This document shows positions 23,056 to 39,121 of a stretch of 52,744 nt of DNA, piece after piece. Source of the stretch: Deltaproteobacteria bacterium (GTDB taxonomy: Bacteria; SAR324; JACQKK01); the NCBI GenBank assembly GCA_029858505.1, contig JAOUEW010000011.1:1-52744 (forward strand), written 5' to 3'. The position numbers were made by a program, and so were the translations under genes. The notes below the pieces were generated by a model. The model worked only from the letters and a program-made list of their open reading frames with translations, did no database searches and was not told where the DNA came from. Position 1 is the stretch's first letter; every line of letters starts with the position of its first letter.

Positions 23056-23109
23056 CCTCTTTGGAAAACCACCTCCAACCGTTGATTGTTCTCACTGCCG
23101 GAGAATCCC

Positions 23110-24852
23110 GTGACCGACCGATTTGACCCGGCCCAATTGGCTGGCGTGTACCGGGCCATTCATGAACGGCGTGACATTCGATCCTATCGCCCCGACCCCA
23201 TCCCAGACGAGTTGCTGTGGAAGCTGCTGAACGCGGCCCACCACGCGGGCAGCGTGGGCTACATGCAGCCCTGGAATTTTTTGATTGTGCGGGACCCCGC
23301 CCAGCGGCGCAGGGTGTATGAGCACTTTTTGGCGGTGAACCAAAAAGCCGCCGAGGGCTATGACGGAGAGCGGGGGGCCGCTTATCGGTCATTGAAATTA
23401 CAGGGTCTGCTAGATGCCCCCCTGAACCTGTTGATTACCTGTGACACCACCCGCGGAGGTCGGGTGCTGGGGCGGGCCACCATTCCGGAAACCGATGTGT
23501 ATTCCACCTGCTTGGCGGCCCAGAATTTTTGGCTGGCCGCCCGGGCCGAGGGCGTGGGGGTGGGGTGGATGAGCCTGATGGAACCCCAGGTGGTGGCGGA
23601 GATATTTCACCTGCCGGAGGGCGTGCATCCCGTGGTGTACTTCACCGTGGGATACCCGGTGGAATTTCCCCCAGAGCCCATGCTGGAAACGGTGGGTTGG
23701 GGAACCCGGTTGCCCCTGACCGACCTGGTGTTTGAAAACCGCTGGAATCAGGCAGCCCAGCCCCCGGCCACCCAGCCCATCCCCCCTAAGCCCACAGCCC
23801 CCTTAAAAACGACCGGGCCGCTGCAGCCCAACCAAGCGGTTAAGCTGGCCCAGACTCGGCTAGACAACCTGACCAAGCCCCAGGGCAGCCTGGGCCGCCT
23901 GGAAGAACTGGCCTGCCGCCTGGCCGCCATTCAAGGCCTGGAATACCCCACCTGCCAGACCCCCCATGGAATCATTTTTGCCGCGGACCATGGGGTCACC
24001 GCCCAGGGGGTCAGCGCCTATCAACCCCAGGCCACCCACCAGATGGTCTATCAATTTCTGGCCGGGGGGGCCGTGATCAATGAATTGGCCCGGTTGCAGG
24101 GAATGTCCCTGACCATTGTAGACGTGGGGGTGGATCACGATTTTGGCATGGCAACGGGATTGACGCACAGCAAGGTGCGGCGGAGCAGCCGAGACCTAAC
24201 CCAGGAACCCGCCATGACCGAGCAAGAAACCCGGCAGGCCTGGGCCGCGGGCGTGCAGGCCGTAGACAACCTGCCCACGGTGGACTTGCTGGTGCTGGGA
24301 GAAATGGGCATCGGGAACTCCACGGCGGCGGCGGCCCTGGTGGCAGCCCTGCTGGGGTTAAGCCCAGAGCAAGCCGTTGGCCAGGGAACCGGCATTGGAC
24401 CGGAAACCCTGACTCGCAAAGCCAAGGCAGTGGCCACGGCCCTGGCCCGGCACGGCTCCCATCTTCAAGACCCCTGGCAGGCCCTGGTGCGGGTGGGGGG
24501 ATACGACTTGGCCGCCCTGGCTGGGGCCATGACCCAGGCCCACCACCGTCGAATTCCGGTGATGCTGGATGGATTCATTGCCGGGGCGGCGGCCCTGGTG
24601 GCCTGCCGAATAGCCCCCCCCGTGGGAAACTCCCTGCTGGCCGGGCACCGTTCCACAGAACCAGCCCATGGGGCCGTGCTGAAAGCCCTGGGACTGGAGC
24701 CCCTTTTGGACCTTCACCTGCGGCTGGGAGAAGGCTCTGGGGCGGCCCTGGCGGTGGGGCTGGCACGGGCCGCCTGCCAAATTCTCAGCGGCGTGCGTAC
24801 TTATGAAGAAACGGGACTGCCCCGGCCCATTTCGCCAGAGGGAATAAAGTAA
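23110..24852 (+). CDS. BluB-CobT fusion for cobalamin lower-ligand synthesis and activation
   Basis: A 580-residue fusion. Residues 1-212 are BluB, the flavin-destructase that makes 5,6-dimethylbenzimidazole from FMNH2: RRDIRSYRPDPIP, YMQPWNFLIVRD and GVGVGWMSLMEP are visible. Residues 213-240 are a proline-rich linker. Residues 241-580 are CobT, nicotinate-nucleotide:dimethylbenzimidazole phosphoribosyltransferase, with LTKPQGSLGRLEELA, FAADHGVTAQGVSAYQP, GEMGIGNSTAAAAL, GTGIGPETLTRK and LRLGEGSGAALAV. The fused product would make DMB and attach ribose phosphate, giving alpha-ribazole phosphate. GTG 23110 is chosen because GGAG lies 8 nt upstream; a TTG eight codons earlier is less likely. 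No other cob genes are adjacent. Confidence 0.93.
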   Translation: MTDRFDPAQLAGVYRAIHERRDIRSYRPDPIPDELLWKLLNAAHHAGSVGYMQPWNFLIVRDPAQRRRVYEHFLAVNQKAAEGYDGERGAAYRSLKLQGLLDAPLNLLITCDTTRGGRVLGRATIPETDVYSTCLAAQNFWLAARAEGVGVGWMSLMEPQVVAEIFHLPEGVHPVVYFTVGYPVEFPPEPMLETVGWGTRLPLTDLVFENRWNQAAQPPATQPIPPKPTAPLKTTGPLQPNQAVKLAQTRLDNLTKPQGSLGRLEELACRLAAIQGLEYPTCQTPHGIIFAADHGVTAQGVSAYQPQATHQMVYQFLAGGAVINELARLQGMSLTIVDVGVDHDFGMATGLTHSKVRRSSRDLTQEPAMTEQETRQAWAAGVQAVDNLPTVDLLVLGEMGIGNSTAAAALVAALLGLSPEQAVGQGTGIGPETLTRKAKAVATALARHGSHLQDPWQALVRVGGYDLAALAGAMTQAHHRRIPVMLDGFIAGAAALVACRIAPPVGNSLLAGHRSTEPAHGAVLKALGLEPLLDLHLRLGEGSGAALAVGLARAACQILSGVRTYEETGLPRPISPEGIK

Positions 24853-34485: not shown

Positions 34486-34971
34486 ATGACCAAGGAAGTC
34501 GTCAACGAGAACGAATCGTTCACCCAGCGGGAAATCCGCAAGGGGGCGAAAGCATTGCAATTCGCCACGTTCTACCTAGACAAAGAACTGTTCGGCATCA
34601 ACATTCTTCAGGTGCAAGAAATCTTGATGCACCAGCGGGTGACCCCGGTACCCCTGGCCGATGCCTTCGTGCTGGGCCTGATCAGCATCCGCGGGCAAAT
34701 TGTCACGGCGGTGGACCTGCGCCGCAGGATTGGCATTGCCACCCAGCGCGCCGCCACCAAGGCCTATCACATTGTGGTGAAAAGCCAAGACGCCGTGGCC
34801 AGCCTGGAAGTGGACCGGATTGGAGAAGTGATGGCCATTTCGGCCAAAGACCTAGAGCCACCGCCAGACACTTTAAAAGGCATTGATCCGCGTTTTTTGG
34901 AGGGGATGTACCCGTTGAAGCACGAAATTCTGGCCGTGTTGAACATTGACCAGATCCTGGCGGCCAATTGA
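34486..34971 (+). CDS. cheW: CheW-type coupling protein
   Basis: A 161-residue adaptor linking chemoreceptors to CheA. The CheW beta-barrel motifs are visible: QFATFYLDKELFGINILQVQ, VPLADAFVLGLISIRGQIV and DLRRRIGI, followed by VVKSQDAVASLEVDRIGEVM and ILAVLNIDQIL. Length is typical. It lies 58 bp after the CheA-like gene and 38 bp before the receptor start, completing a signalling array set (receptor, CheW, CheA). Confidence 0.92.
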   Translation: MTKEVVNENESFTQREIRKGAKALQFATFYLDKELFGINILQVQEILMHQRVTPVPLADAFVLGLISIRGQIVTAVDLRRRIGIATQRAATKAYHIVVKSQDAVASLEVDRIGEVMAISAKDLEPPPDTLKGIDPRFLEGMYPLKHEILAVLNIDQILAAN

Positions 34972-35009
34972 CGGACGCCCCCCCAATCAGCGAAAAGAAG
35001 GAGAACGCC

Positions 35010-36665
35010 ATGAATAACATCTTTTCAGATGTTCATTTGGCCCAGGCCGGTGGGGCCGGCATGAAAAAGGAGAACCTCATGAATGACCTTTCACCCGCAA
35101 ACGCCACGCTTGAAATCGAACGTCTCACCGCCGTGCTGGACGGGCTGGGGACGAACGTGCTGGTGGCCGACCGCGACCGTAACCTTATTTACATGAACCC
35201 CCGCTCGCGCCAAACGCTGAACGGGCTGGCCCGCCAAATTTTGGACCAAATGGGCTTGAGCGTGGATGAAATGCAGGGCGGCTCCATTGACCGCTTTCAC
35301 AAAGACCCCAAACGCATCGCCCGCATTTTAGCGGACCCCCGGAATCTCCCCCATACCGCGGTGATTGACCTGGGCGACCGCAAACTGAACCTCAACGTGA
35401 ACGCGGTCATGTCTTCCCACGGTGAGTTCATCGGCACGGTGGTGAACTGGGCCGACATCACCGATAAAATTAGCCTGGAAGAAGAACAGGCCCGCACCAG
35501 CAACATGGTCGACACGGCCAACATCAACATGATGATGGCCGACCGTGATTTAAAACTGGTGTACATGAACCAAGCCTCCAAAGAGACCTTCCGCCAGATT
35601 GAAAAAGTATTGCCGGTGAAAGCCGCTCAGATGGTGGGCAATTCCATCGACATCTTTCACCAGGACCCCCAGCGGGTGCGAAAGCTGCTGAACAACCCGG
35701 CCAACCTGCCCCACCAAGCCGAAATCGAAATCGGCGGAGAGTGGCTGAAGTTGAACATCGTGGCTATTCTGAACAAATCTGGTGAGTATGTGGGGCCCAT
35801 GGCCTCGTGGAACCGCATCACCCAAGAGCGGATCAACCGCCAGCGCGACGAGCAGGTACGCAATGACGTCACCGTCATCGCCAGCGAGGTGGAAAATTCC
35901 TCCCGCCAGATGATTCAGATCGCCAATATTTTGGCGGCCAACACCGAGGAAAACTCCAGCCAAGCCTCCAACGTGTCGTCGGCGGCTGAACAGGTAAGCG
36001 GCAACGTAAGCTCCGTGGCCACGGCGGTGGAAGAAATGAGCGCCACCATCCGGGAGATTGCCAAAACCGTGGGGCAGTCCTCCGAGGTCACCCAACAAGC
36101 CGTGGGGCTTTCTAAAAACGCCGGGAAAATCATCGCCCTGCTGGGAGAGTCTTCCAAAGAAATCGGCAAGGTGACCCAGGTCATTTCCAACATCGCCCAA
36201 CAGACCAACATCCTGGCGCTGAACGCCACCATCGAGGCCGCCCGGGCTGGCGAAGCCGGCAAGGGATTCGCCGTGGTGGCCAACGAGGTGAAGGAACTGG
36301 CCAAAGAAACCTCCAAGGCCACCGAGGACATCACCACCAAAATTGAAGACATCCAACGCAGCGCCAACGAAGCGGTGAACTCCATCGAGGAAATCAACCG
36401 CATCATGAACGAGGTGGACAAACTCTCCACCACGGTTTCCAGCGCGGTGGAAGAACAATCGGTCACCACCAACGAGATCTCCCGCTCCATGAGCGAGGCC
36501 TCCTCCGGGGTGAACGAAATCGTCCGCAACATTACCGGCGTGGCCGATGCCGCCAAAGAAGCCTCGGAAAAGACCGCTCAAACCAAAGAGCAGTCGGAAA
36601 AGCTGGGGAACTTCGCCAAACAACTGGGCGATATCGTCAAGCTGTTCGAGCAGGGGAAGAAATGA
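35010..36665 (+). CDS. Soluble PAS-PAS methyl-accepting chemotaxis protein
   Basis: A 551-residue cytoplasmic receptor with no membrane segment. Two PAS-like modules repeat the same pattern: VLVADRDRNLIYMNPRSRQT ... IDRFHKDPKRIARIL and MMMADRDLKLVYMNQASKET ... IDIFHQDPQRVRKLL. The signalling domain has the highly conserved hairpin tip IAQQTNILALNATIEAARAGEAGKGFAVVANEV (shown in part) and coiled-coil arms. PAS modules suggest sensing of redox, gas or a small cytoplasmic ligand. ATG 35010 is preceded by AAGGAG; a near-copy of the same ribosome site and start (AAGGAGAACCTCATGAATGA) recurs 69 nt later at ATG 35079. Its stop overlaps the next gene (ATGA). Confidence 0.93.
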   Translation: MNNIFSDVHLAQAGGAGMKKENLMNDLSPANATLEIERLTAVLDGLGTNVLVADRDRNLIYMNPRSRQTLNGLARQILDQMGLSVDEMQGGSIDRFHKDPKRIARILADPRNLPHTAVIDLGDRKLNLNVNAVMSSHGEFIGTVVNWADITDKISLEEEQARTSNMVDTANINMMMADRDLKLVYMNQASKETFRQIEKVLPVKAAQMVGNSIDIFHQDPQRVRKLLNNPANLPHQAEIEIGGEWLKLNIVAILNKSGEYVGPMASWNRITQERINRQRDEQVRNDVTVIASEVENSSRQMIQIANILAANTEENSSQASNVSSAAEQVSGNVSSVATAVEEMSATIREIAKTVGQSSEVTQQAVGLSKNAGKIIALLGESSKEIGKVTQVISNIAQQTNILALNATIEAARAGEAGKGFAVVANEVKELAKETSKATEDITTKIEDIQRSANEAVNSIEEINRIMNEVDKLSTTVSSAVEEQSVTTNEISRSMSEASSGVNEIVRNITGVADAAKEASEKTAQTKEQSEKLGNFAKQLGDIVKLFEQGKK

Positions 36666-37321
36666 CCCTTCCCCTGGTGTTCTTCACCGACTTTGTCTGA
36701 CCCTTTTGCTTCATCGCGGAGCAAAGCAGCCTGGTCAAGTTGTTAGCCACATTCGACATGGCGCTGGAATGGCGGGGGTTTGAACTGCACCCGGAAACCC
36801 CGCCGGGAGGCCGCCCCTTGTCGGATTTGTTTCCCCCGGAACGTTTACAGGGGATGGACGAATACCTGAACCGTTTTGCCCAAGGGTTTGGGGTGGCCCC
36901 CTTGAAACCCGCCTCCTGGTTGCCCAACACCCGCCGGGCCCTGGCCCTGGCCGAACTGGCCCGGGAGCATGGCGCCTTGGAGCCCTACCGCCAAGCCGCC
37001 ATGGAAGCCCATTGGCGGCGTGGGCTCAACCTGGAGGATGAGCAGGTGCTGGAAGACTTGGCCCTGGGGGCTGGCCTTCCCGCAGGGTCCGCAGAGGCTT
37101 CCAAAGACGCCCGCTATCTGGACCGGATTGACCAAACCCGCCAGGAAGCCATGGCCATGGGAATCCAATCCATCCCGACCTTTGTGTTTGGCTCCCTGGG
37201 CGTGGTGGGCTGCCACCCCTTCGACACCCTGGCCCAGGCCGCCCGAGAAGCTGGCGCCCAGCCCAAAGCCTCTCCTCCCGCCCCGACATTTCCCCTGGGA
37301 GAAATAAAGGGGGATAACTAA
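36662..37321 (+). CDS. DsbA/FrnE-like oxidoreductase with in-frame UGA, probable selenoprotein
   Basis: A 219-residue thioredoxin-fold protein of the DsbA/FrnE/2-hydroxychromene-carboxylate isomerase family. ATG 36662 overlaps the receptor stop (ATGA). The N-terminus reads MTLPLVFFTDFV-TGA-PFCFIAEQ: the TGA at 36698-36700 sits exactly where family members have the first Cys of CPxC, giving a U-P-F-C redox motif if read as selenocysteine (residue 13). The reading frame stays open and family-like on both sides: EWRGFELHPETPPGG, then QEAMAMGIQSIPTFVFG with the cis-Pro. A hairpin follows the TGA. Ordinary gene calling would start later and lose the active site. Alternative: a point-mutated pseudogene, disfavoured by the second case at 41656. 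Confidence 0.8.
36703..36726 (+). promoter_or_regulatory. Candidate SECIS hairpin of the DsbA-like gene
   Basis: It starts 3 nt after the TGA. CTTT(T)GCT pairs with AGCAAAG, 7 bp with one bulged U, around the loop TCATCGCGG in which two more weak pairs are possible. The bulged U and G-containing loop fit bacterial SECIS elements, but the loop lies only about 10-12 nt after UGA, closer than usual. Confidence 0.45.
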
Positions 37322-37564: not shown

Positions 37565-39121
37565 TTGAGCGCGCCGAATCCATCGTTGTTTTCCAGGGGC
37601 TGGGCCATGGTCAAAATGGCCCGGGCAGCGGTAAAGCTTTCTCGCGCCCAAGAACAAACCGTGGCCGACAACGCCGCCCGGTACTTGGCAGAAAGCCTGG
37701 GAGAACTGCGGGGTTTGCCCCAAAAAATGGGGCAAATTCTTTCCATGAGCGCCAGCCCGGAACGCCAACCCTTCCGCCCCCTGCAAGAAGGCCCGGCCCC
37801 CCTGGACCTTGCCGTGGTGGAATCGGTGCTGGAGGCGGAATGGGGCTGCCCCCCCAAACAAATTTTGGCCGAATTGGAGCCCATGGGGCGGGGGGCCTCT
37901 TTGGGGCAAGTGCACCGGGGGCGGCTGGTCTCTGGTGAAACCGTGGCCGTGAAGGTGCAATACCCTGGCATTGCCCAGGCCGTGGAAAATGACCTGCGCA
38001 TGATGGGCTGGCTGATGGCCCCCATGGGCAGCCGTGGCAAGGGGTTCGACATCGCCGGATACAGGCGGGTGGTGACCGAAGACCTGCAAAACGAACTGGA
38101 TTACCTCACCGAAGCCGACAACCAGCACCAGATGGCCATGCTGGGGGGATACCTTCCGGGGTTGATTGTGCCCAGGGTGTTTGGCCAGCATAGCACCCGC
38201 CAGGTCTTGGTCACCGCCTGGGAGGACGGGGTGTCTTTGGAGGAGGCCGCCCAATGGTCCAAAAAAGACCGCAACGAGGCGGGCCGCCTGTTGCTGCGGG
38301 TGGTGTTGGAAACCCTGTTTCGCCATGGGCTGGTGCAGGCAGATCTGCACCCCGGAAACTTCCGGTTTCGCCGGGGCGGCGCCCTGGAACTGGTGGTGTA
38401 CGATTTTGGATGCGTGTGGCGGCCCTCCAAAGACACCCGGTTGACGCTGCTTCGACTCATCGCCCAGGCGGCAGAAAACCCAGACGGCAGCAGTGGAAGC
38501 GGTGACCCCTACCCCCTGTATGTCAAACTGGGATTTGATCCGGCCTACCTGGAACCCATGGCCCACCGGCTGGCCCCCCTTACACGGGTATTGTTTGAGC
38601 CTTTTCTCACCCCAGGAGGATACCCCCTGGCGGTTTGGAACCTGGGGGAACGGGTGGGAGATATTCTGCAAGATGACCGTTGGAACTTCCGGGTAGCCGC
38701 CCCGGCTGATCTCATTTTTGTGATGCGGGTGTTCCACGGCCTCACCCACGCCCTAAACACCCTGGGGGCGGAAGTCCCCTGGAAATTCCTGCTGGATCCT
38801 ATTTTGTTGGATTTTCAAGGGGAAATGGCTGCCCTGCCCCTGCCCGTGCCAGAAGACCCCCAGCGGGGGTATGGCGCCATGGCCCGGTATTTGGTGGCCC
38901 AGGTGAAGGAAGATGGCCAGGTGAAGGTCAAAATCACCAGTCCAGTGCAATCCCTGGATGGCTTGAAAGAAATGCTGGATGAGGACATAATGGTCAAAAT
39001 CCGACAACAGGGAACGGACATTGACGTGCTGATCCGGCAGGCCCGCCAAAATGGGTACCGGCCCCAGCCGATATTTCACCTGACCGATGGCCCCAAAGAA
39101 GTCACCGTGTGGTTGGAATAA
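37565..39121 (+). CDS. ABC1/UbiB-family atypical protein kinase-like protein
   Basis: A 518-residue ADCK/UbiB-type protein. The family-specific KxGQ motif is in GLPQKMGQILSM. The nucleotide loop RGASLGQVHRGRL replaces the usual AAASIGQVH. Then VAVKVQYPG (the ATP-binding Lys), the catalytic-loop equivalent QADLHPGNF, and VVYDFGCVW (DFG-like). Relatives support ubiquinone synthesis or act as ATPases on membrane lipids; no ubi genes are nearby. The start is TTG 37565, 9 nt after AGGGGA; ATG 37607 is an alternative. The C-terminal ~110 residues look like an added domain. Precedes the zinc-finger protein gene by 33 bp. Confidence 0.85.
   Translation: MSAPNPSLFSRGWAMVKMARAAVKLSRAQEQTVADNAARYLAESLGELRGLPQKMGQILSMSASPERQPFRPLQEGPAPLDLAVVESVLEAEWGCPPKQILAELEPMGRGASLGQVHRGRLVSGETVAVKVQYPGIAQAVENDLRMMGWLMAPMGSRGKGFDIAGYRRVVTEDLQNELDYLTEADNQHQMAMLGGYLPGLIVPRVFGQHSTRQVLVTAWEDGVSLEEAAQWSKKDRNEAGRLLLRVVLETLFRHGLVQADLHPGNFRFRRGGALELVVYDFGCVWRPSKDTRLTLLRLIAQAAENPDGSSGSGDPYPLYVKLGFDPAYLEPMAHRLAPLTRVLFEPFLTPGGYPLAVWNLGERVGDILQDDRWNFRVAAPADLIFVMRVFHGLTHALNTLGAEVPWKFLLDPILLDFQGEMAALPLPVPEDPQRGYGAMARYLVAQVKEDGQVKVKITSPVQSLDGLKEMLDEDIMVKIRQQGTDIDVLIRQARQNGYRPQPIFHLTDGPKEVTVWLE

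Follow-up and report, generated by a model that had tools for sequence, protein, structure and literature searches.

An FrnE/DsbA-type thioredoxin-fold oxidoreductase gene of a SAR324 bacterium in which an in-frame UGA at the first active-site position very probably encodes selenocysteine

DsbA-like selenoproteins with a UxxC motif (COG2761, PF01323) were described in 2005 from the Sargasso Sea data set (PMC1088965), and DsbA-like selenoprotein form 1 is present in current selenoprotein lists (PMC13188914). The replacement of the first Cys of a CxxC motif by selenocysteine (Sec), to which a preliminary description of the present locus had appealed as an established pattern, has in DsbA-like proteins been on record since that time. 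The gene reported here lies in the window, i.e. the whole stretch of 52,744 nucleotides that was analysed (contig JAOUEW010000011.1 of assembly GCA_029858505.1), and is of this already known kind, to which it adds a member, perhaps from a separate and little-sampled branch. In common with form 1, its product falls in PF01323, with a predicted Sec where CxxC has its first Cys. By contrast, its motif is UPFC with one extra residue after it, and in trees it joins the Cys-containing CPFC/CPYC proteins. The best matches in both sequence and structure are Deinococcus radiodurans FrnE (5cnw, 5cp1) and SCO1869 (3gl5), which share ~25% identity with the window protein and carry, aligned with its U13, the first Cys of their active sites.

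The gene (36662-37321, forward strand, as are all of its elements given below) comprises 219 codons including Sec13, followed by TAA. Between ATG 36662 and TAA 37319-37321, the sole in-frame stop is the TGA at 36698-36700, which corresponds to residue 13 of MTLPLVFFTDFVUPFCF and to the first Cys position of a CPFC motif. The preliminary description had considered the frame to be family-like on both sides of this TGA, and the profile and alignment results agree: the read-through protein scores 97.5 bits against PF01323 (DSBA; cut-off 25.6), and its residues 7-213 align with Deinococcus FrnE, with U13 exactly on the first active-site Cys. In the alignments, U13 stands opposite the first catalytic Cys of the Cys-type homologues. 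The codon of Cys16, the resolving residue of UPFC (36707-36709), corresponds to an invariant column in alignments A1, A2 and A4, and the codon of cis-Pro172 of the thioredoxin fold (IPTF, 37175-37177) is likewise invariant in the alignments. The AlphaFold2 model of the protein (mean pLDDT 92.7) matches FrnE 5cnw (TMq 0.76) and SCO1869 3gl5, and has a DsbA fold with an inserted helical domain and the CxxC position at the N-terminus of helix 1, residue 13 standing directly before helix 14-30. The N-terminus enters the first strand directly, leaving no room for a signal peptide, and the protein therefore looks cytosolic. Deinococcus FrnE also has a second, C-terminal Cys motif; this is missing from the window protein, which contains only Cys16 and Cys184. 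The product would be a cytosolic thiol/disulfide oxidoreductase or reductase, with Sec13 as the attacking nucleophile of the UPFC redox motif and Cys16 as the residue that resolves.

The genome encodes selA (469.9 bits), selB (352.7 bits), selC (63.8 bits, above the Rfam cut-off, and called by ARAGORN as tRNA-Sec with anticodon TCA, i.e. UCA) and selD (362.3 bits), and is thus equipped to read UGA as Sec. The selD gene has its own in-frame TGA, followed by a hairpin with a perfect stem, CCGAUA-GGUC-UAUCGG, whose loop lies at +21. For the FrnE/DsbA-type gene, the nearest relative found is L138 in genome G201, of another phylum, which is 49% identical, groups with the window protein with tree support of 100/99, and carries TGA at the corresponding codon, as does L140 (genome G137, of a different small phylum), which is 32% identical. 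These two, both of tiny other phyla, are the only relatives found in the UPFC branch, and no further members were found in viral contigs, in plasmids, in the tiny phyla to which G201 and G137 belong, or in a second domain sample; the scan of named-genome contigs used patterns of the UPWC branch (discussed below), which window-like sequences would escape. Between the window gene and L138, codon choice after the TGA is conserved beyond the protein level. Codons 14-26, the 13 codons after the TGA, have 92% DNA identity, compared with 56% for the rest of the gene downstream, and the first 36 bases after the TGA contain two differences. At residues shared by the two proteins, the same codon is used in 10/12 cases in codons 14-26 and in 34/82 cases elsewhere (Fisher p = 0.007).

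Taken with the sel genes and the conservation of both the TGA and the DNA after it, the suggestion that UGA 36698 of this gene is read as Sec at the first active-site position very probably holds. A different origin for the TGA is a recent nonsense mutation, TGC to TGA, in a Cys-type FrnE gene whose frame beyond that point has not yet decayed. A single step from TGC or TGT indeed gives TGA, and the SECIS candidate in the window is weaker than that of L138; such a pseudogene is nevertheless very improbable, given the complete Sec machinery in the genome, the presence of TGA at the same codon in two other phyla, and the excess of codon conservation directly 3' of it. In addition, of the 63 single-base changes that would create a stop in this gene, just one gives TGA at codon 13, and neither L138 nor L140 has other disabling mutations. 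It is still harder to credit that the TGA is the true stop of a short leader and that translation starts internally at TTG 36740. That frame does appear in the list of open reading frames; its 193-aa truncated product would be without the first beta strand and the entire active site, and the family alignments start ahead of the TGA.

Reading of the UGA as Sec would involve decoding by a ribosome carrying SelB and tRNA-Sec, guided by a SelB-bound hairpin in the mRNA. Published criteria for bacterial SECIS (bSECIS) elements are a loop of 3-9 nt, a G in the first two loop bases, a distance of 16-37 nt from the UGA, and an MFE <= -7.5. The probable SECIS in the window is the hairpin GCAGCCU-GGUC-AAGUUGU (36726-36743), with its loop at 36733-36736, 32 nt after the UGA. 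Its counterpart in L138, GCAGCCU-GGUC-AGGCUGC, has the same loop at the same place (+32) on a perfect 7-bp stem, and agrees with all four published criteria. Relative to L138, the window stem keeps four pairs, changes two from G-C to G.U, and has one C/A mismatch; its loop and distance conform to the bSECIS rules, and the isolated helix, at ~-3.3 kcal/mol, is weaker than the limit of -7.5. A GGUC loop with at least 6/7 stem pairs in the allowed range arises in 0.9% of synonymous recodings, and the same GGUC-loop motif follows 0.13% of background codons in ten window ORFs. In the fold of the full 63 nt, the hairpin lying upstream outcompetes the GGUC hairpin (GGUC pair probability 0.01). Only if pairing of the first 15 nt is prevented, as it would be by a ribosome at the UGA, do the five outer GGUC pairs form with a probability of 0.8-0.9. 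The selD gene of the same genome likewise has a GGUC-loop hairpin downstream of its in-frame UGA, differing in the loop position of +21, in the perfect stem, and in the protein encoded. In L140, the ACCUGGA loop of a 7-bp hairpin, whose stem is interrupted by a 1x1 internal loop, lies at +25.

The preliminary description had pointed instead to a bulged hairpin next to the TGA. This hairpin is present (UUUGCUUC-AUCGC-GGAGCAAA, 36705-36725), and at -8.5 kcal/mol it is the most stable local one; a partial stem UGCUUC/GGAGCA is possible in the window and L138 alike, and L140 can form a similar stem. It is not unusual, however, with z = -1.28 against dinucleotide shuffles and with 11% of synonymous recodings folding equally well, and the free-energy test is uninformative by itself, since 31% of synonymous recodings match even selD. 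The AUCGC loop lies 12 nt from the UGA, outside the published 16-37 nt, and lacks a G in either of its first two positions; moreover, the preferred pairing shifts register in L138, and the hairpin would sit mostly beneath the ribosome. Recoding of the UGA with this adjacent hairpin as SECIS is therefore unlikely, and the element guiding Sec insertion is probably the GGUC hairpin further downstream.

The gene follows an ORF for a PAS-PAS-MCP chemoreceptor on the same strand (34968-36665; PAS domains, and PF00015 at 119.6 bits), itself preceded by CheA-type and CheW genes. The stop codon of the receptor and ATG 36662 share bases (AAATGA), and the junction contains a perfect 9-bp hairpin, CAGGGGAAG-AAAUGACC-CUUCCCCUG (36651-36676), whose loop holds the AUG and whose stem includes a G-rich ribosome-binding stretch (z = -3.04 for the folding of 36640-36690). 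Such a hairpin ties up the start codon and the ribosome-binding stretch, in keeping with a translational coupling to the receptor gene by which translation of the selenoprotein would probably start. The tie to the chemoreceptor proposed in the preliminary description is thus plausible in the genome of the window; it does not extend to the two nearest relatives, where the chemotaxis neighbourhood is not seen, the L138 gene sitting behind a SoxA/TsdA-type cytochrome c gene and the L140 gene lying away from chemotaxis genes. A functional link between the redox enzyme and the receptor is a matter of speculation. Other parts of the window include a 588-aa ORF (23086-24852) that fuses a BluB-like nitroreductase domain to a CobT-type DBI_PRT phosphoribosyltransferase, joining in a single chain two steps of cobalamin synthesis that concern the lower ligand, and a tandem repeat of the 8-bp unit AACAAGGG, which runs for 19.6 copies at 406-562 with 98% matches and is open on both strands. 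Elsewhere in the genome, an identical formate-dehydrogenase-like match occurs at identical coordinates (38044-39054) on two contigs (G000:C6 and C11; L051 and L052), reflecting either an assembly duplication or a real repeat.

Homologues at E <= 1e-10 occur in 23 genomes of the phylum of the window. Those other than the window gene have an in-frame TGA at the same site, within UPWCYL or similar motifs (UPFCYL in L027), and most have in common a hairpin whose loop lies at +20, for example CUCAGUAC-CGGGC-GUAUUGAG. Among named genomes, TGA is found in 38 of the best 80 loci, all of the UPWC branch and spanning several phyla, including Thermodesulfobacteriota, Myxococcota, Pseudomonadota, Acidobacteriota and Chloroflexota. 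The conserved TGA of the phylum relatives (L010-L035) was rejected as direct proof of Sec in the window protein, as the tree places the latter outside their branch. No UPWC Sec-DsbA was seen in the genome of the window, which has the UPFC form instead; the UPWC kind is carried by 22 other genomes of the phylum. Several Cys forms (L066:2256-2858, L129:6001-6603, L084 and L102) are nested within the UPWC Sec branch in the tree and are likely Sec-to-Cys reversions.

In free trees, the window protein lies outside the UPWC branch and with the CPFC/CPYC Cys forms (100/99 and 100/100 splits), suggesting that Sec may have arisen twice, and the most economical reading of these trees is that Sec replaced Cys in two separate events, each with a SECIS element of a different kind. 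The UPFC proteins would then be a second, independently evolved Sec branch of the FrnE/DsbA family, scattered in rare phyla, with a SECIS of its own 25-32 nt downstream, unrelated to the UPWC SECIS at +20 (the loop in the window being at +32); in the genome of the window, this form seems to replace the UPWC form of the phylum and to be tied to a chemotaxis operon. We hold the chances of this reading to be about even. A single Cys-to-Sec event for the whole family, with the window gene descending from the widespread UPWC DsbA-like Sec branch and its SECIS remodelled, has a lesser but real claim: a clade uniting all Sec forms is not firmly rejected in the AU test (p = 0.07, and p = 0.34 when only the window protein and L138 are moved, without L140), but this descent is at odds with both the splits joining the window protein to the Cys forms and the different hairpin that the UPWC forms have in common.

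Standard annotation would call the UPFC gene a pseudogene or truncate its product, and no model specific for the UPFC protein was found in NCBIfam. The window gene and L138 provide a homologue pair with a conserved UGA and an unusual SECIS distance, which is useful for testing SECIS mobility. If the UPFC branch is separate in origin, it would show clearly that Cys has been replaced by Sec more than once within one fold.
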